Source: Boletus sp. NGJ
Lineage: Eukaryota; Basidiomycota; Agaricomycetes; Boletales; Boletaceae
Assembly (NCBI GenBank): GCA_019096195.1
Contig: JAGTXK010000103.1
Span: 372,001-436,000, forward strand
DNA: 64,000 bases
Direction of reading: 5' to 3'
The notes below the pieces were generated by a model, which saw only the letters and a list, made by a program, of their open reading frames with translations, was not told the DNA's origin and did not search any database. How positions within the stretch are numbered: the first letter of the stretch is position 1; every line of letters begins with the position of its first letter. Below, in pieces: positions 23,441 to 63,100 of this stretch. Position numbers and translations under genes: made by a program.

Positions 23441-23914
23441 TCTTGCATGGCCTCCGTCCGGGACGGCGAGCTGGTGTGTGGCAGCAGCTAACTCTATGGG
23501 GCGAGTGTAAGACATAATAATATTACATATAATAATGATCTATGCAAGGCTCTCCGTCCGGGAAGGCGAGCTGGTGTGTGGCAGCGGCTAACTCTATGGG
23601 GCGAGTGTAAGGCATAATAATATTACATATAATAATGATCTATGCAAGGCTCTCCGTCCGGGAAGGCGAGCTGGTGTGTGGCAGCGGCTAACTCTATGGG
23701 GCGAGTGTAAGGCATAATAATATTACATATAATAATGATCTATGCAAGGCTCTCCGTCCGGGAAGGCGAGCTGGTGTGTGGCAGCGGCTAACTCTATGGG
23801 GCGAGTGTAAGGCATAATAATATTACACATAATAATGATCTATGCAAGGCTCTCCGTCCGGGAAGGCGAGCTGGTGTGTGGCAGTGGCTAACTCTATGGG
23901 GCGAGTGTAAGACA
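23441..23914 (+). repeat. 100-bp tandem array, 4.7 copies
   Basis: Units begin at 23441, 23541, 23641, 23741 and 23841, with an exact period of 100 bp. Each holds CTCCGTCCGGGAAGGCGAG, CTCTATGGGGCGAGTG and an AT-rich half (AATAATATTACATATAATAA). The first unit is the most diverged and keeps the better palindrome (CCGTCCGGGACGGCGAG). The inner three are almost identical, which suggests recent unequal exchange. The last is cut short by the giant inverted repeat at about 23915-23921. Confidence 0.9.
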
Positions 23915-24052
23915 CATTTTAAGGGATCTAATCTAATTGGGTAAGGGCTACCATAGGGTACAGGTAACATCAACATAGCAAACCACGCACATGCGCCAAT
24001 GGCGCATGTGCGCGTCCACAACAACATCGCAATAAAACATGAACAATCGAGT

Positions 24053-24523
24053 GTTGATAACGACGACTGCGGCATAAACGATGAACAGATGAAAACGAGG
24101 AATATGTTGAGTGTAGTTATACAGCGCGCACATGCGCGCATGGCGCATGTGCGTGTGAAATAAGCAACAACAACAAGACACATGTTTCACATTTATACGA
24201 CAAACACGCCGATGCGCCATGAGAGCATCTGCTCAGTTGATAGGTGTGTCGTACTGAGGCGGTGCTTGTTCCTGCGCCATGTGCGCATGTGCGCGGGACG
24301 CGCACAAGACCTACAGTACGACACACCTATCAACTGAGCAGATGCTCTCATGGCGCATCGGCGTGTTTGTCGTATAAATGTGAAACATGTGTCTTGTTGT
24401 TGTTGCTTATTTCACACGCACATGCGCCATGCGCGCATGTGCGCGCTGTATAACTACACTCAACATATTCCTCGTTTTCATCTGTTCATCGTTTATGCCG
24501 CAGTCGTCGTTATCAACACTCGA
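24053..24523. repeat. Nested inverted repeat (hairpin) in the left arm
   Basis: About 205 bp (24053-24258) recur inverted at 24317-24523 around a ~58-bp tip. The sequence holds CGCACATGCGC / GCGCATGTGCG blocks that are themselves palindromic, and GTACGACACACCTATCAACT beside the tip. A second pair sits in the right arm (about 29622-30108). Four copies in all, so hairpins sit inside a hairpin. Open frames here (rich in Cys, His and Met) are by-products of the repeat and I do not call them genes. Confidence 0.85.
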
Positions 24524-25913
24524 CAATGGCGTCGTTGTCATCTGCGCCTGGAATGCATTGCATTCCTCTTTTCACATACATGTCCTGTGTACATTATTTT
24601 AGTACCTTATATTTACACTCTGAAGGGTTCAAATCACCTCTACGCTCACGTATCATTCCTCCCGATTTTCACTGAGAACAGTGCTCGTGTGTACTTCTCC
24701 CAATACCATTCCGGTACAACTACATATTCAGTGTATTCATTCATTCTAAATACATCAGTGGCTCTCATTGGAAAACACTACAACTTCACCTCGTCATGCT
24801 ATTTCATTCAGCCCGCTCAAATTGTCACAAAAGGTTGGTTTTCCCTTAGTATTCACTTCGATTTTACTAGTCTCGTCGCCTTCCTAACATAACTTGGTAG
24901 GTTTTCTTCCATGCATACACTCCACACAACAACTCCACCACTCCTTTCCTTTCACTTCCTGTCTTTCCATTTCCTTATCGTGCTTCCTATTTCATAACAG
25001 TTATTGCTTCCTCAGCTCCACTCTCTTGTCCACCTTCTCTTTATTCATTTCTACCATTCAGTACCAAAGTATGCCATTTCATTGAATTATTGGTCTGTTG
25101 GAAAAATCTACACATGATATTTTCTTAATGGCGGTGCACCACAGATTCTGTGTGCAGTGTGGGTGTTGGATGTCCTAGTTCAACTGTCAGCGGTACCAGA
25201 GGAATTCAGAGGGGGGAAGAGCCAGAAACAGACAGTAAGTTTACACAAGAACCTTTTTAAAGCTCAGCAAATTTACCTGTCCTTGGGACGGCATTATTGG
25301 TCATGCTAGTATTTACCCAACATGGTAATGATAATATACAATTAACATGGCTGCAGAAGGGTTGGCAGTGGGTGGTGGTATCAACATCTTCATTCACTGC
25401 AGAATGTAAGTTGGGTGGGGCCCAGGACCAACAATTCACACAGACTAATACAGTCAACATGCAGTTTCCACTCAAGGTAGTACTAAATAATTACATATCT
25501 CTTGTTCTGAATCCATCTGGTTGATCTTCTTAGACTGAAAGTGGAACATGCCTTGTGTGACAATTGACTCATACCAGGACTTGTTGGAGTAGCAGTGTCG
25601 TCACAAATAACCTTTCAGGCAACAAGCATGATTTAGAACGCAGAGATGAATTGGTGGTAACTCAGTGCAAGTCAGTCTATTAGGGCACAGTGGACTTAGT
25701 GAGCATAGTCATGTGCAAATTCAAATACCAAATAACCTTATTTCTCACCCTCTCCAGAAGTGGCTGGAAGATAACACTTGTAAACTTCATCAGCCACAGT
25801 GGTAAATCTGCAGCATGAATGGCAGAGTTCAGACATACAAGAAAATAAAATATTATTTGTGCATCGTAGAGATTATCTCAATGTCAAAAAAAATTGGATA
25901 GCTTTGCAGTCAC

Positions 25914-26325
25914 ATGCCAGTGTCTGCTCAATCTTCAGAAACCCCTAGCCTCTCTACCATATGTGATAGGGCTCAAGAAATCTTCTCCAAAAGACCATGT
26001 CTCTGGCACTTAAAAATTGCTGAAGCATTCCTAAAGGGGGACCAAGATATAGTATACATTGCCCAGCAAGACACTTACCTTTTGGTTACCTCTGCTGTTT
26101 CACCCAAGAGGCATCCAAATAGTAGTGACCCCCCTTAATCAACTCAGTCAGCAAAATATGGACTCCCTACAGAAGGCTGGCATTCAAAGCATTGCAATCA
26201 ATGCTGAAACAGCCTCTTGGGACAACTTCCAAGTCAGTATTGACACTTATTGGCACAAAAGCAATAGAGACTTACTAGTAATCCTTTAGGCAATAGAAAA
26301 CCTTGAATATCGTGCTGTAATAGTG
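25914..26325 (+). pseudogene. RecQ-like DEAD/H helicase fragment (left arm)
   Basis: Reads RAQEIFSKRPCLWHLKIAEA, FLKGDQDIVYIA, then in another frame KTLTFWLPLLFHPRGIQIVV, TPLNQLSQQNMDSLQKAGIQ and AIENLEYRAVIV. This is the N-terminal RecA-like lobe of the RecQ-type helicases scattered through Agaricomycete genomes: Q-motif region, motif I (degenerate here: the expected TGMGKT is disrupted just before KTLTFW) and motif Ia (TPLNQL). The frame breaks between DIVYIA and KTLTFW, there is a stop before AIENL, and the DEAH box onward is missing. It runs straight into the LINE fragment. Confidence 0.7.
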
Positions 26326-27001
26326 GTGAGGCAGCTTTTCTGATCTTGTTGAGGTGTTTGTTGACCGGGGCATGTGTGGTGCAGAGCTGGAATAGGATGG
26401 ATGTGTGGCTTTTTGGAAGACCGTCAATCAGTTTTAAGAATTTTGGTGAGGGGAGTGATGGGTCGACCTTGTCAGCCAGCGCAGCTCATGGTGACATCTG
26501 GAAAATCTTTCAATGTAGTAGTTTTGTGGCGGCAGTGAACGATTGCTTTTTAGCTGATTTGCTTGTTGGGAGTGTTCTCGCAGCATTCCTATGTTTTAGG
26601 ACTTTGGATAGATGCATGGGGTGCAGTGTTGCGCCTTTGGCCGCCTCCTTGGCCTCCACATCCACTTCCGGGAATGCTGGAGTGGCCCGGAGTCCATCAT
26701 AGTATAATCTCCTCTGCCTCGATGGTCTTTAGCGCTGATGGAAAAGGTCCATTAGGTAGTGCCCTGGTTTTGACCTGAATGCCCTGGCCGCCACTATTGC
26801 TGCTCTGTGGTTGATGCCCAGCGGCACCATTCTCACCCTTTGCTCTCCTCGTAGGAGTTCCGCCGCTAAAACCATACCTACTTCCTCGCCTTCAAACACC
26901 GCATGTTCCTTCTCTGTCCCCAGGTGGAATTTTAAAGTCTTCTTTGCCACCCCTCCTCTCCGGAGTATTGCCGCCGCGCCTATCTTTCCTCGTACTCCGA
27001 C
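26326..27001 (-). mobile_element. LINE (Tad-like) 3' fragment, left copy
   Basis: Minus-strand copy of the fragment described at 27002-27677, joined head to head with it at the palindrome centre. It lacks 13 bp within the region that follows GHYLMDLFH. The junction with the helicase fragment near 26310-26326 falls in a short stretch that reads sensibly for both partners, consistent with microhomology. Confidence 0.7.
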
Positions 27002-27677
27002 GTCGGAGTACGAGGAAAGATAGGCGCGGCGGCAATACTCCGGAGAGGAGGGGTGGCAAAGAAGACTTTAAAATTCCACCTGGGGACAGAGAAGGAACAT
27101 GCGGTGTTTGAAGGCGAGGAAGTAGGTATGGTTTTAGCGGCGGAACTCCTACGAGGAGAGCAAAGGGTGAGAATGGTGCCGCTGGGCATCAACCACAGAG
27201 CAGCAATAGTGGCGGCCAGGGCATTCAGGTCAAAACCAGGGCACTACCTAATGGACCTTTTCCATCACGCCCTAATTGAAGCGCTAAAGACCATCGAGGC
27301 AGAGGAGATTATACTATGATGGACTCCGGGCCACTCCAGCATTCCCGGAAGTGGATGTGGAGGCCAAGGAGGCGGCCAAAGGCGCAACACTGCACCCCAT
27401 GCATCTATCCAAAGTCCTAAAACATAGGAATGCTGCGAGAACACTCCCAACAAGCAAATCAGCTAAAAAGCAATCGTTCACTGCCGCCACAAAACTACTA
27501 CATTGAAAGATTTTCCAGATGTCACCATGAGCTGCGCTGGCTGACAAGGTCGACCCATCACTCCCCTCACCAAAATTCTTAAAACTGATTGACGGTCTTC
27601 CAAAAAGCCACACATCCATCCTATTCCAGCTCTGCACCACACATGCCCCGGTCAACAAACACCTCAACAAGATCAGA
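27002..27677 (+). mobile_element. LINE (Tad-like) 3' fragment with RNase H remnant, right copy
   Basis: From about 27016 it reads IGAAAILRRGG, KKTLKFHLGTEKEHAVFEGE, EVGMVLAAELLRGEQRVRMV, then INHRAAIVAARAFRSKPGHY, the RNase H fold seen at the C-terminus of fungal Tad1-clade LINE polyproteins. The motif usually written 'vDNQAAI' is INHRAAI here. A downstream remnant in shifted frames matches the family tail (TPGHSSIPG, KILKTDWRSSKKPHIHPIPA, then TPQQDQKS). The reverse transcriptase and the 5' part are absent, so the copy is 5'-truncated as LINE insertions often are. The 5' truncation point is the palindrome centre. Confidence 0.7.
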
Positions 27678-28102
27678 AAAGCTGCCTCACCACTATTACA
27701 GCACGATATTCAAGGTTTTCTATTGCCTAAAGGATTACTAGTAAGTCTCTATTGCTTTTGTGCCAATAAGTGTCAATACTGACTTGGAAGTTGTCCCAAG
27801 AGGCTGTTTCAGCATTGATTGCAATGCTTTGAATGCCAGCCTTCTGTAGGGAGTCCATATTTTGCTGACTGAGTTGATTAAGGGGGGTCACTACTATTTG
27901 GATGCCTCTTGGGTGAAACAGCAGAGGTAACCAAAAGGTAAGTGTCTTGCTGGGCAATGTATACTATATCTTGGTCCCCCTTTAGGAATGCTTCAGCAAT
28001 TTTTAAGTGCCAGAGACATGGTCTTTTGGAGAAGATTTCTTGAGCCCTATCACATATGGTAGAGAGGCTAGGGGTTTCTGAAGATTGAGCAGACACTGGC
28101 AT
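27678..28102 (-). pseudogene. RecQ-like helicase fragment (right arm, mirror copy)
   Basis: Reverse-complement copy of the fragment at 25914-26325, with the same breaks. The fragment was therefore already broken before the arms were duplicated. Confidence 0.7.
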
Positions 28103-30236
28103 GTGACTGCAAAGCTATCCAATTTTTTTTGACATTGAGATAATCTCTACGATGCACAAATAATATTTTATTTTCTTGTATGTCTGAACTCTGCCATTCA
28201 TGCTGCAGATTTACCACTGTGGCTGATGAAGTTTACAAGTGTTATCTTCCAGCCACTTCTGGAGAGGGTGAGAAATAAGGTTATTTGGTATTTGAATTTG
28301 CACATGACTATGCTCACTAAGTCCACTGTGCCCTAATAGACTGACTTGACCTCTCCAGCTGCGGATGGGAAGGAGCCTGAGCATACATCCTGCATAGGAT
28401 GAAATTTCACTCCTCAGTCACTTTTGCCACCCTCACTCTCTTACAGTGCCTCAAGGCTTGATTTCAAACTGCTGAAAAATCACTGAGTTACCACCAATTC
28501 ATCTCTGCGTTCTAAATCATGCTTGTTGCCTGAAAGGTTATTTGTGACGACACTGCTACTCCAACAAGTCCTGGTATGAGTCAATTGTCACACAAGGCAT
28601 GTTCCACTTTCAGTCTAAGAAGATCAACCAGATGGATTCAGAACAAGAGATATGTAATTATTTAGTACTACCTTGAGTGGAAACTGCATGTTGACTGTAT
28701 TAGTCTGTGTGAATTGTTGGTCCTGGGCCCCACCCAACTTACATTCTGCAGTGAATGAAGATGTTGATACCACCACCCACTGCCAACCCTTCTGCAGCCA
28801 TGTTAATTGTATATTATCATTACCATGTTGGGTAAATACTAGCATGACCAATAATGCCGTCCCAAGGACAGGTAAATTTGCTGAGCTTTAAAAAGGTTCT
28901 TGTGTAAACTTACTGTCTGTTTCTGGCTCTTCCCCCCTCTGAATTCCTCTGGTACCGCTGACAGTTGAACTAGGACATCCAACACCCACACTGCACACAG
29001 AATCTGTGGTGCACCGCCATTAAGAAAATATCATGTGTAGATTTTTCCAACAGACCAATAATTCAATGAAATGGCATACTTTGGTACTGAATGGTAGAAA
29101 TGAATAAAGAGAAGGTGGACAAGAGAGTGGAGCTGAGGAAGCAATAACTGTTATGAAATAGGAAGCACGATAAGGAAATGGAAAGACAGGAAGTGAAAGG
29201 AAAGGAGTGGTGGAGTTGTTGTGTGGAGTGTATGCATGGAAGAAAACCTACCAAGTTATGTTAGGAAGGCGACGAGACTAGTAAAATCGAAGTGAATACT
29301 AAGGGAAAAGCAACCTTTTGTGACAATTTGAGCGGGCTGAATGAAATAGCATGACGAGGTGAAGTTGTAGTGTTTTCCAATGAGAGCCACTGATGTATTT
29401 AGAATGAATGAATACACTGAATATGTAGTTGTACCGGAATGGTATTGGGAGAAGTACACACGAGCACTGTTCTCAGTGAAAATCGGGAGGAATGATACGT
29501 GAGCGTAGAGGTGATTTGAACCCTTCAGAGTGTAAATATAAGGTACTAAAATAATGTACACAGGACATGTATGTGAAAAGAGGAATGCAATGCATTCCAG
29601 GCGCAGATGACAACGACGCCATTGTCGAGTGTTGATAACGACGACTGCGGCATAAACGATGAACAGATGAAAACGAGGAATATGTTGAGTGTAGTTATAC
29701 AGCGCGCACATGCGCGCATGGCGCATGTGCGTGTGAAATAAGCAACAACAACAAGACACATGTTTCACATTTATACGACAAACACGCCGATGCGCCATGA
29801 GAGCATCTGCTCAGTTGATAGGTGTGTCGTACTATAGGACAGGCGCGTCCCATGCGCACATGTGCACATGTGCGCGGGAAACAAACAACAAACAAGACCT
29901 CAGTACGACACACCTATCAACTGAGCAGATGCTCTCATGGCGCATCGGCGTGTTTGTCGTATAAATGTGAAACATGTGTCTTGTTGTTGTTGCTTATTTC
30001 ACACGCACATGCGCCATGCGCGCATGTGCGCGCTGTATAACTACACTCAACATATTCCTCGTTTTCATCTGTTCATCGTTTATGCCGCAGTCGTCGTTAT
30101 CAACACTCGATTGTTCATGTTTTATTGCGATGTTGTTGTGGACGCGCACATGCGCCATTGGCGCATGTGCGTGGTTTGCTATGTTGATGTTACCTGTACC
30201 CTATGGTAGCCCTTACCCAATTAGATTAGATCCCTT

Positions 30237-30534
30237 AAAATATTACGTAAGTGGTCTAGACTGATCCCGGAGATAGCCGAAAGAAGCATCGGACCGAAGA
30301 CCCGAAACGGCCCGACTCGGTTACTGCAATACCCGGCTCGGCAATTTAATTACCGTTAGCCGTGAGAAACTTCTCACGCAGAAGCGCAACCGGAAAGATC
30401 CGAGTGTTACCGGCAAGATCCGGCTTTAATTTCCGCTGCGTCTATCTCCGCTCTCCCACGTTATATTAATGGTCCGTGCGCGACTCTTTCTTGTATAAAT
30501 ACAGGTAAGAGTTATGAAATACTTTTCTCTATTC
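30237..30534 (+). mobile_element. LTR-like fossil fragment upstream of the ribozyme
   Basis: Immediately outside the palindrome the composition changes to CCG/GGC-rich sequence (GATCCCGGAGATAGCCGAAAG, CCCGGCTCGGCAATTTAATT) typical of fungal LTRs. A TATAAAT at 30494-30500 follows, ~35 bp before the hammerhead. No internal coding region of a retroelement is attached, so it looks like a solo or truncated LTR fossil. Family not determined. The lack of a matching second copy in the window prevents dating. Confidence 0.45.
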
Positions 30535-30611
30535 GCCAGAGGTCTGATGAGTCCCCGGACGAAATAGGTGGCAATGGAAGCGGTCGCCCCATCGCCTATT
30601 ACCTATCTGGC
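30535..30611 (+). ncRNA. Hammerhead ribozyme, type I (self-cleaving RNA)
   Basis: All core nucleotides are present. C3-A9 = CUGAUGA at 30544-30550. Stem II GUCC/GGAC at 30551-30560 (minimal loop). GAAA at 30561-30564. The cleavage triplet AUU is at 30598-30600, with predicted cleavage after 30600. Stem I pairs 30535-30543 (GCCAGAGGU) with 30601-30611 (ACCUAUCUGGC) in nine pairs with a two-base AU bulge. Stem III starts A30564-U30599 and continues for about eight pairs (AUAGGUGG / the 3' strand ending GCCUAU, with G-U wobbles), then an internal bulge and a loop. Stem I is the open helix, hence type I. A TATA-like box ~40 bp upstream suggests it is transcribed near the 5' end of an element RNA, as in retrozymes and Penelope-like elements. 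Confidence 0.85.
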
Positions 30612-30836
30612 ACCATCCCACTCCTATCCCCCTCGCACAGCTCGCTTCGCTCGCTGTGCTCGGCCCCCCTTACCACCGGTAACACCTCGCCTCGCTGCTT
30701 TGTGGCTCGGCTTGGCTCCCTAATCCCTTGCCGAGGCAAAAGTGTTATTGCATTACCGCCAGTAATGCCTCGCCTCACCGCTTCGCAGCTCAGCTCGGCT
30801 CCCTGACCCTGGGCCATACTACTGCTGGCATCAACT
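30612..30836 (+). repeat. GC-rich direct repeats after the ribozyme
   Basis: Two diverged ~60-bp direct repeats (about 30668-30728 and 30754-30813). They share ACCTCGCCTCGCTGC / GCCTCGCCTCACCGC and GGCTTGGCTCCCT / AGCTCGGCTCCCT. They are preceded by a short hairpin (GCACAGC...GCTGTGC, 30635-30660). No coding content. Probably part of the same fossil element as the ribozyme. Confidence 0.6.
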
Positions 30837-31230
30837 TCTATTCCACTGTGACAGTGGATTCAGTGAGTTAAAATTGAGTGAGTCCAAGTCACCAAATATC
30901 ATTGCATTTCCACCCACTGGAATCCAATGAATACCTAATGATTCATTGAATCACTGAATATCATTGTATTTATACACACTGGAATCCAATGAACCATCAA
31001 AACTTAGTGTATCAGTGAAATTCAAATGATACTACACAAGTCAATGAAACTCATTGCATTTCGAGCCATTGAATTTCTGATGGTACACTGAAATTTGGTA
31101 AATCGGTGAAACCCACTGTATAATATTGCAGTGAGTCAATGAAATGAACTACATCAACATTCAGAGAGTTTTCCTCTGAATATTCGACAACCATTGTATT
31201 TTGGACTGAATATAACCGGATTTACTACTC
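30837..31230. repeat. AT-rich ~61-bp tandem repeat block
   Basis: Units such as AATATCATTGCATTTCCACC and AATATCATTGTATTTATACA, each with CACTGGAATCCAATGAA, recur every ~61 bp around 30894-31020. They then decay into shorter pieces with TCAATGAAA and ATTGCATTT. Non-coding; origin unknown. The block ends just before the IST2 promoter. Confidence 0.6.
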
Positions 31231-31443
31231 ACAGTGCGATCACGTCAAACGGGTGTACCATACTCTGTTGAGACATGTTTGGCATCGTATGTAAGACACA
31301 CAAGGAATTTTCGGTATACTTATGTGCGGTAAATGCCTCGTTGATTTGGCCATGTACCGTGGGAGTCGGGGTGGCCTTGTCGACGAACTACACCCTTCAC
31401 GCGGCAGATTCATTCATACCGGTGCCAGCCGGAACCACATAGA

Positions 31444-60103: not shown

Positions 60104-63100
60104 TGTTGTATTATTTTCATATGGACTACGGTACAAACAGACTCGGTTAGATCCGTATTACAAAATCATGTAGATAACCTTCATCTCGATGTGACTCTAC
60201 ACCTCAGTCACTGACTCTATCCAGTACTGAGGTGAGATCCATCTATCATTACTTTACACCTTGTACTCATATATTATAGTGTACTTCTATAGGTGTGGAA
60301 TACACTAGTCACTGACTCTATCCAGTACTGAGTGTACTTCTACAGATTATGAGCCCCATGCTCTAATCGTGAGAAAAACTCATAAACGATGTGCATATAT
60401 TCACCATAATGAGTACTACAACATCTGAGGAGATTAAGCTGCCCAAGCTTGACACGTCCGGTAAGGAGTGGGCCATTTGGAAGGTCCAACTCCAGGTGGT
60501 TGTAGCCAGTCAAGGACTTAGTGGGTACCTCAACGGCACGAAACCCATAGATCCAGCAGTTGGAAAACCGAGCGGATGGATGACAACAACTCCGGATGAG
60601 GTGAAAGTGGTCATGGAATATATCAAGGACCTGACAACATGGGTCAAGAAGGATGCTAAAGTCCAACATATCATCGCCAATACGCTCCCTAACTCCCTTT
60701 TCATTTGACTGGTCAACAAGACAAGTGCTTCTGAATACTTCACAAGATTGAGCGCTCTCTTTGAACAGCGCTCTATTGTAGTCGGTGCAGAGATGCGTCG
60801 ACAGTTAGGCGAGCTGAAACTGAAGGACGGTGGGGACACACGTGCGCATATTGACAAAATTATTGCAATGCGCGAAGAGCTTGCATCGATCAGACGGCCA
60901 GTGTCTGATGACAACCTCTTTAACATCATATATGTGTCACTCCCTCGTTCCTACAACCCTGGCTTAGCATCACTTTCGTCTACCATGCGCCTACAGCAAA
61001 AGACCATTACTCCTGATGACCTGATGGATATTGTCTTGGAAGAGTATGACAGACTCACTCTTCAAGATGGCGGCAAATCCAAAGGCAAAAGTTTGTCACT
61101 GGAAGATTCTGTTTTTGGAGTGGATGTGTCTAAGCGAAAAGGATCTCATCAGAAATTCCTTGGTTCCTGTAACAACTGTGGTTGGACTGGGCACAAAATT
61201 GGCAATTGCTGGAAGGAAGGTGGTGGAAAGGCTGGGCAAGCCCCCAAAGGATGGAAACCTCGCAGAAAGAAATCTAAAGACAAAGACTCAAAGAATGGGA
61301 AAGGTTCTACCTTAGCGCATGCAGCAGATCAGCCTTGTGCAGTGGTCCAGCCCGGCTGCATGTGGCTCGCCTCCCTGGACATTGTTCACAACAGTAAAGC
61401 TTCTCTTGCACACATAGACACAGCGAGTGTTCCCAAGTTATACAACAGTGGAGCATTGCAACACCTTTCTCCTTCATGCAAACATTTTGTCAACTTCATT
61501 TCCATTCCACCTAAGCCTGTTGCACTGGATAACAATGTGACATGTTCCTGTATAATCAACCCTGTTTGATTATAGGACTAGCAGGACTTGAGGGGAAAAT
61601 ACCTCCAGAGGCCCAATGATTCCTCCGACTGGGGACTGCTGCTAGCTTTAGGAGCGGGTAACAGCAATGAAGCTGCACAAGTGTGCAGTGATGAGGAAGA
61701 TGATCACTAGCACAAGGGTGATCACCTCCAGAGTGGGAGTGAGGCTTCTGAGGTGAAGTGGAACCGGTAGCAGGAGAAGCTAGTAGATTACATGGGAAGG
61801 AGTGTAGATCTAGGTTAGAGTTACATGAAGAGCCCGTGCCCCTTTATATAGGCCATGCCCATCTAGGGCAGGCTTCGTATCGTATATGGTAATCGTAAGT
61901 CGCAGACTAAAGATTACCATAAAGGGATCTAAGCATCAGTCAAATGGAGATTTGGAATACTAAGCTGTGTGCAAGAGAACACAGCCGAAGAGGCAATGTC
62001 TATGATTGAGTCAGAAAGAGATGAAAGGCATGTATCAATGAAATAGAAAGGCAGTGTCCAAACTAAACAGGTAACTTCCTAGAAAGGGAGTTCCTGATGG
62101 GGCAATGCCTAAGTTGGTGTTGCAGGGGAATCCCTGGTCTGAGTTGAAGAACAAGTCGTCCCATAGTCCTATGGGGGGTGAAGAAAGAGGAAAAGATGTA
62201 CTCCCTTCAGTAACTGTAATAAAGCCTATCCGAGGAGCTGACAATGGCACTTTTAACACAATTGGGAAAGGCGACTTACCTATATATCTTCCAAATGGAT
62301 CCTCTCAAACTCACATCCTCTTGAAAGACATGTTATATGCACCAAGCATGCATGTTACCCTGGTATCTATTGGTCGTCTTACCCAAGCGGGATGTCGTGT
62401 GGTCTTCAATGGACCCACCTGTCAGATCTTTGATGCACATAAAAAGCTTCTTGGGGAAGTTAGCATCACGAATGGTCTGTATTGTACACAACACACATAC
62501 CAAATCCTGACCGCAGCGGTCATGAAAGATGAAGAACAGGTTACCATGGAAGACCTCCATGCCCATTTATCGCACATTGGTATTTCCACCATTCATGAAA
62601 TGCTGTCAAAAGGGATGATCTTGGGCATCACATTACATCTGGACCACACTGATATGGGCCAATGCGTTGCTTGTGAATACAGAAAAGCAGTATGCAAACC
62701 TATCGGTACCACTCGTGAGCCTACCCATACAATGGCACTTGGTGACGAAATACATACCAACGTATGGGGCCCATCCCCTGTCCAAACACCTGGAAAATGG
62801 AGCTACTATTGCTCATTTACAGATGACCATACCCGCTATACACATGTCAGTCTATTATTTGTGAAATCAGACATGTTTTTCGCTTACCTGGAGTTCAAGT
62901 CTTGGCTGAAGATGCAACATGGCATCTCTGTCAAACAGCTTTGTTCTGACCATGGGGGGGAGTACCTATCCAATGAATTTTCTTGTCACTTGAATTGCAG
63001 CGGGACAGAACAAAAACTTACCACCCATGACACACCTCAACATAATGGCATTGCGGAATGACTGAACCGAACCCTAGTGGAACGCATACGCACTATCTTG

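Follow-up and report, generated by a model that had tools for sequence, protein, structure and literature searches.

A hammerhead ribozyme overlapping a predicted intron in the pseudo-LTR of a probable Penelope-like element of Boletus

Introduction

What does a self-cleaving RNA motif do inside a repeated piece of fungal DNA? The question is raised by positions 30535–30611 of a 64-kb stretch of the Boletus sp. NGJ genome (64,000 nucleotides, hereafter the window), in which the original prediction had recognized a complete type I hammerhead ribozyme within an LTR-like fossil. Hammerheads are established in Penelope-like retroelements (PMC11167929 and, in excerpts, PMC6155905, PMC7761336 and PMC6431247), and their role there and in Terminon elements has been called unknown (PMC7761336, excerpt). 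Penelope-like elements that lack an endonuclease, those of fungi included, prime at exposed chromosome ends and carry telomere repeats at truncated 5' ends (PMC3846280, excerpt). Pseudo-LTRs are also described as containing introns (PMC11722881, excerpt).

Results

Judged from its sequence, the motif at 30535–30611 (plus strand) is a real hammerhead, and every part named for it is present. The window copy reads, in order, CUGAUGA, stem II as GUC(CCCG)GAC, GAAA, stem III and an AUU triplet, with a predicted cut at 30600/30601; the invariant type I core CUGAUGA / GAAA / NUH lies between three stems, stem I being open. Stem I pairs GCCAGAGGU with ACC-UA-UCUGGC through nine pairs and a two-nucleotide UA bulge, and stem III forms eight unbroken pairs in one register, in agreement with the nine and about eight pairs expected. 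A generic type I architecture scan of both strands of the window returned this single match, against none in 100 simulated first-order windows. Covariance models and folding energies did not favour the motif. No Rfam family reached its gathering score in the window; the best match at 30535–30611 was Hammerhead_3 (21.2 bits against a gathering score of 48.5, E 0.25), and RF00163 gave 0 matches genome-wide, and likewise 0 in the control genomes. Left unconstrained, the window hammerhead folds into a different structure (−27.2 kcal/mol, z −1.15), and 23 of 200 shuffles are as stable; in folds computed without tertiary contacts, the hammerhead-constrained form lies 1.8 to 6.8 kcal/mol above the free one in 8/8 variants. 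Because Rfam rejects the motif and folding energies favour another structure, the case for the hammerhead rests on copies, conservation and co-change.

Copies are numerous. In the source genome itself (32.8 Mb, 141 contigs), positions 30200–30640 gave 58 matches, some of which span only an adjoining transposon end, and the core was found at 37 sites with up to two mismatches, 34 of them exact. A pattern search of 20 fetched stretches and the window yielded 35 hammerheads of nine kinds. The repeated LTR-like unit thus held up. Twelve of the 35 are letter-identical and the window copy is among them, so that the label of fossil, by sequence, did not, even though this copy lies mid-contig and its CCCTAA end has decayed to CCCTTA. 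The host unit, which we call unit A, occupies 30240–30674 (plus strand), as delimited by BLAST of 30240–31400 against the 20 fetched stretches, where copies end at query positions 433–437; array copies carry a 5' leader, of which the window unit lacks about 55 nt. The TATA-like box claimed upstream was found in this repeated unit, as TATAAATA at 30494–30501 (plus strand). Downstream of the ribozyme, a hairpin with GCACAGC/GCTGTGC arms (30635–30659, plus strand) stands ahead of the CCCTAA end. Its arms co-vary between copies, and 0 of 20000 arm shuffles reached native pairing over 13 versions, a comparison in which the arms were chosen from predicted folds, favouring the native pairing. The final CCCCCCTTACC at 30664–30674 (plus strand) is a decayed form of the unit A end CCCCCCTAACC seen in other copies.

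Conservation was measured on 22 of the 24 distinct unit A copies (28 in all), two decayed copies in locus L026 being left out. Mean per-site diversity outside the ribozyme is 0.131 over these full copies of the 435-bp unit; it is 0 at 30535–30563, 0.022 in the 3' strand of stem I (30601–30611) and 0.207 in stem III. The core is the longest invariant run (30534–30571, 38 nt), followed by 30380–30406, 30594–30610, 30409–30423, 30494–30506 and 30331–30342; the first of these is a 27-nt block on the plus strand upstream of both the ribozyme and the TATA-like box, and the box itself lies within 30494–30506. The stem III arms vary while their pairing is largely kept, and we regard this as moderate support for the modelled helix: 884 of 40320 permuted pairings match the native set or better it, and native arms average −12.1 kcal/mol against −11.2 for swapped ones. 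This comparison, like the folding, used eight of the nine distinct ribozymes, the decayed L026 one being left out. Stem I is invariant and stem II nearly so, and neither is informative on compensating change. The expectation of many copies was borne out by the 37 core sites; that of compensating changes has moderate support in stem III. Loss of the core without compensation, which would have spoken against the ribozyme, was confined to four decayed copies (two in L026, one each in L027 and L028).

To what kind of element does unit A belong? At L025 the order is unit A, an ORF of 1282 open codons, a 3'UTR, CCCTAA and unit A again; a single ORF is thus flanked by units in full or partial tandem, as with pseudo-LTRs, in an element of about 5 kb in which no extra genes were seen. 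PADLOC reverse transcriptase models match the YIDD region of the ORF (best E 6.1e-7), and by eye we take the ORF to contain reverse transcriptase and Penelope-type motifs. A Pfam scan of five ORFs found no reverse transcriptase and no GIY-YIG or other endonuclease, though a highly diverged domain could escape it; PDB searches with the ORF gave no reverse transcriptase among the matches, and NCBIfam gave only Drt3a (E 0.015). Pfam RVT_1 has at least 150 scored matches in the genome, none of which, among the matches listed, falls within the fetched array stretches. The ORF matches on eight contigs, seven with unit A, the eighth match being of 27 residues. In collections with few fungi, two ribozyme patterns and the reverse transcriptase had no match in viral_contigs, and the reverse transcriptase no confirmed relative in genome_contigs. 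An LTR retrotransposon was rejected: the five ORFs tested with Pfam gave no gag, integrase or Pfam-type reverse transcriptase between the repeats.

The unit is attached to telomere repeats. Of the 35 hammerheads, 32 have CCCTAA within 90 nt downstream, a frequency to be set beside 31 in 5000 pieces drawn at random from the window, and two adjoining CCCTAA units follow 24 of the 35, against 2 of 5000; the three exceptions are one hammerhead in L015, one in L017 and the window copy with its CCCTTA. By hand sorting of 21 unit A starts, 11 follow the 3'UTR tail of the ORF element, six follow unit B (described below), three follow unit A and one is at a contig edge; an identical repeat tract including (CCCTAA)3 is present in 9 of the 11 starts behind the ORF 3'UTR tail. 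Units A also stand in tandem at about 490–500 bp. Arrays with these telomere-repeat joints are often near contig ends, those on contig C20 and the window copy being internal. Orientation was counted by hand on the 17 contigs other than that of the window: unit A has its 5' end towards the nearer contig end on 11, points away on 4 and is mixed on 2, but repeats are in any case places where contigs break. Contig ends showed no long telomere arrays, and the only perfect 36-nt arrays lie inside contig C107. We assign a probability of roughly 0.8 to the reading that an endonuclease-less Penelope-like element, one attaching to chromosome ends, carries the hammerhead in its pseudo-LTR. The proposed link with Penelope-like elements is supported, the unit being best read as a pseudo-LTR joined to telomere repeats and not as the neighbour of an LTR retrotransposon. 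The fungal clade of endonuclease-less telomeric Penelope-like elements is Coprina.

The window copy lies mid-contig, 402 kb into a contig of 867.5 kb, between a transposon end and two 5'-truncated unit B tails (about 30670–30725 and about 30726–30812, plus strand; 30670–30812 together). It may be the remnant of an array, or may have been relocated there. The transposon-like neighbour, at 23916–30241 with no strand assigned, is about 6.3 kb long with long inverted repeats ending in ATTTTAAGGG / CCCTTAAAAT, and its right end abuts unit A; in the fetched arrays the right end of this type of element often adjoins truncated unit A or B copies. A tandem repeat of about 100 bp fills 23480–23915, directly to its left. 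Farther off, at 60709–63061 of the window, open frames look like parts of a Ty1/copia-type element, with fragments of gag and of integrase.

Unit B shares the arrays with unit A. It is about 932 bp long and noncoding (when one unit was scanned, no open frame exceeded 79 codons), and carries a type III hammerhead: RF00008 scores 43 bits against a gathering score of 48.5, with a genome-wide E of 5.8e-7; ten of the copies matched are complete, and an eleventh is interrupted where its contig stops. By pattern, the fetched loci hold 17 intact copies of this hammerhead and one mosaic. Tandem units B, each with its type III hammerhead, extend over L020:555-3442 on C107, possibly as a telomeric retrozyme-like unit. 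Three further pieces, L016:4582-4646, L020:3487-3610 and L024:3955-4068, interleave unit A and unit B sequence at the level of single letters; they are probably assembly mixtures and were excluded from the type I copies.

Where do copies of unit A begin? Among 60 BLAST pieces that reach the 3' part of the unit, 23 start at 30240–30242, 20 are unit B tails and 17 are scattered; none of the 60 starts at the cleavage site 30601, the nearest being 30606, in L017. The RNAs behind the surviving copies therefore do not look ribozyme-cut, and the suggestion that the element circularizes or trims its RNA draws no support from copy ends, which fall at CCCTAA and not at the cleavage site.

The ribozyme core is overlapped by a predicted 63-nt GT-AG intron at 30505–30567 (plus strand), with donor CAG/GTAAGA and acceptor AAATAG/GTGG; in one copy elsewhere in the genome, 65 nt are missing from this stretch. 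CTGAT at 30544–30548, inside both the core and the predicted intron, fits the branch-site consensus. A GTRNG donor, in five hexamer versions, follows TATAAATACAG 63–66 nt above the acceptor in 33/33 copies with a readable acceptor, although these copies are related and do not amount to 33 independent facts; the search gave 36 matches, the others being the copy that lacks the stretch, a decayed L026 copy with a donor and an unrelated window match. As the TATA-like box is only 3 nt above the donor, a transcript that uses this donor must start further up. The shortened copy, L020:8741-8954, serves an ORF copy on C107 as its 5' pseudo-LTR and is identical over the aligned part to L020:3766-4194 bar the 65 missing nucleotides. 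The loss can be placed as GTACGT...ATAG, and GGT at both ends allows four equivalent placements, one of them GT-AG. A deletion through GGT microhomology is possible and would fit as well as splicing. The shortened form was found at one genomic place only, and a control search with the pattern reversed likewise matched once, at a different place.

Discussion

Based on these observations, we propose a model in which the element seeds its own addition to chromosome ends. In the element RNA, CCCUAA repeats would occur twice, once where the ORF 3'UTR ends and once at the 3' terminus of the pseudo-LTR. A chromosome whose TTAGGG 3' end is exposed could pair with CCCUAA and prime reverse transcription at the telomere, and copies would be added one behind another, often 5'-truncated, with telomere repeats between them. 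The window copy would be the mid-contig remnant of such an array. What, then, of the ribozyme? An unspliced RNA that cleaved itself would lose either its capped 5' end or the 3' tail with CCCUAA. Splicing would discard the 5' half of stem I along with CUGAUGA, stem II and GAAA, leaving an RNA unable to cut itself. Because the catalytic core overlaps the predicted intron, splicing and self-cutting would exclude each other. This suggests, tentatively, a splicing-controlled switch: the core lies in an intron, CUGAU serves also as branch site, the transcript either cuts or splices, both forms can be reverse-transcribed onto chromosome ends and the noncoding type III partner shares the machinery. 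We regard this extension as somewhat unlikely, the GGT at both ends of the 65-nt loss having lowered its odds. Should the stretch be an intron, at least one spliced RNA has gone through reverse transcription, and the ribozyme is lost on splicing.

Alternatively, the hammerhead might never need to cut, and would act by its fold, offering the CCCUAA below it to the telomere overhang as a pairing partner; such a role has been proposed for the Terminons of rotifers (PMC6431247, excerpt). In 32 of the 35 copies ribozyme, hairpin and CCCTAA follow one another in this order over 90 nt or less, in line with such a role, and mutants of the ribozyme of PAc, a Penelope-like element of Anolis, insert in vitro nonetheless (PMC11167929), which parallels the uncut-looking copy starts found here. 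However, a fold does not need every catalytic base, yet the core and GAAA are invariant in the 22 copies, and we consider a purely structural role unlikely.

A retrozyme would account for other features of the arrays. Solo units A and tandem units B would be noncoding elements whose hammerheads cut multimers to unit length; the ligated circles, bearing CCCUAA and primed at telomeres, would give tandem copies. In L020, unit B recurs at spacings of 933, 931 and 933 bp, every joint shows CCCTAACCC and the unit has a type III hammerhead; these features are consistent with this, as are the size of unit B, which resembles the 600–1000 nt of plant retrozymes (PMC6155905, excerpt), and the tandem spacing of unit A. 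Against it, unit A pieces never start at 30601, the nearest start being one of the 17 scattered ones; insertion 3' ends lie below the ribozyme; and two of the three units in L020 are identical, which plain tandem duplication fits too. Such a cycle seems distinctly improbable. It is very doubtful that the stretch is kept only for intron signals around a vestigial, inactive hammerhead: donor, branch-like site and acceptor do overlap the conserved run and the minimum free energy favours another fold, but intron signals do not account for invariant stems I and II, the 3' strand of stem I is nearly invariant outside the intron, and stem III changes with its pairing largely kept.

The reading as an endonuclease-less Penelope-like element finds close parallels. 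The telomere-associated Penelope-like elements of fungi and rotifers (Athena) share a reverse transcriptase without detected endonuclease, head-to-tail copies and telomere repeats at truncated 5' ends as well as at 3' ends (PMC3846280, excerpt). A pseudo-LTR hammerhead overlapping an intron-like stretch is not mentioned for them in the available part of that account. Terminons of bdelloid rotifers likewise have, at the 3' end, a hammerhead followed by C-rich telomere-complementary repeats (PMC6431247 and PMC12477314, excerpts); the Boletus element differs in its length of about 5 kb, its apparent lack of extra genes and its long stem III. PAc has a type I hammerhead in a pseudo-LTR just ahead of the ORF (PMC11167929). 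Hammerheads of animal Penelope-like elements are described as minimal, without helix III or tertiary contacts (PMC7761336, excerpt), whereas stem III is long here. Plant retrozymes resemble unit B, which is noncoding, about 932 bp, tandem and equipped with a type III hammerhead, but unit B has CCCTAA ends. Cervera and De la Pena reportedly described, in 2014, hammerheads with stable monomer folds in fungal Penelope-like elements. In Pleurotus ostreatus, another basidiomycete, five Hammerhead_3 matches of 55 nt are on record as annotation, three of the five on one scaffold (PMC5040776, excerpt); the unit B matches are type III and 55 nt long as well. In the part of the literature covered, neither an intron overlapping the core of a hammerhead nor a type III hammerhead in a telomeric unit was described, which argues weakly for novelty.

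Hammerheads in Penelope-like elements and telomeric Penelope-like elements in fungi are both known; the arrangement described here makes a clear and cheap prediction. The overlap of core and intron offers a simple, testable answer to how a self-cutting motif can be kept ahead of a reverse transcriptase gene while the protein is still made. The arrays also give a look at what is probably a retroelement with a telomere-like seed of its own, adding itself to chromosome ends. Some of them, in L013/L014 (C50), L011 and L009 (C20), are head-to-head mirror arrays, with 98.9% identity over 4857, 92.2% over 7812 and 97.9% over 1402 bases, and these may reflect end fusion, fold-back or an assembly join.
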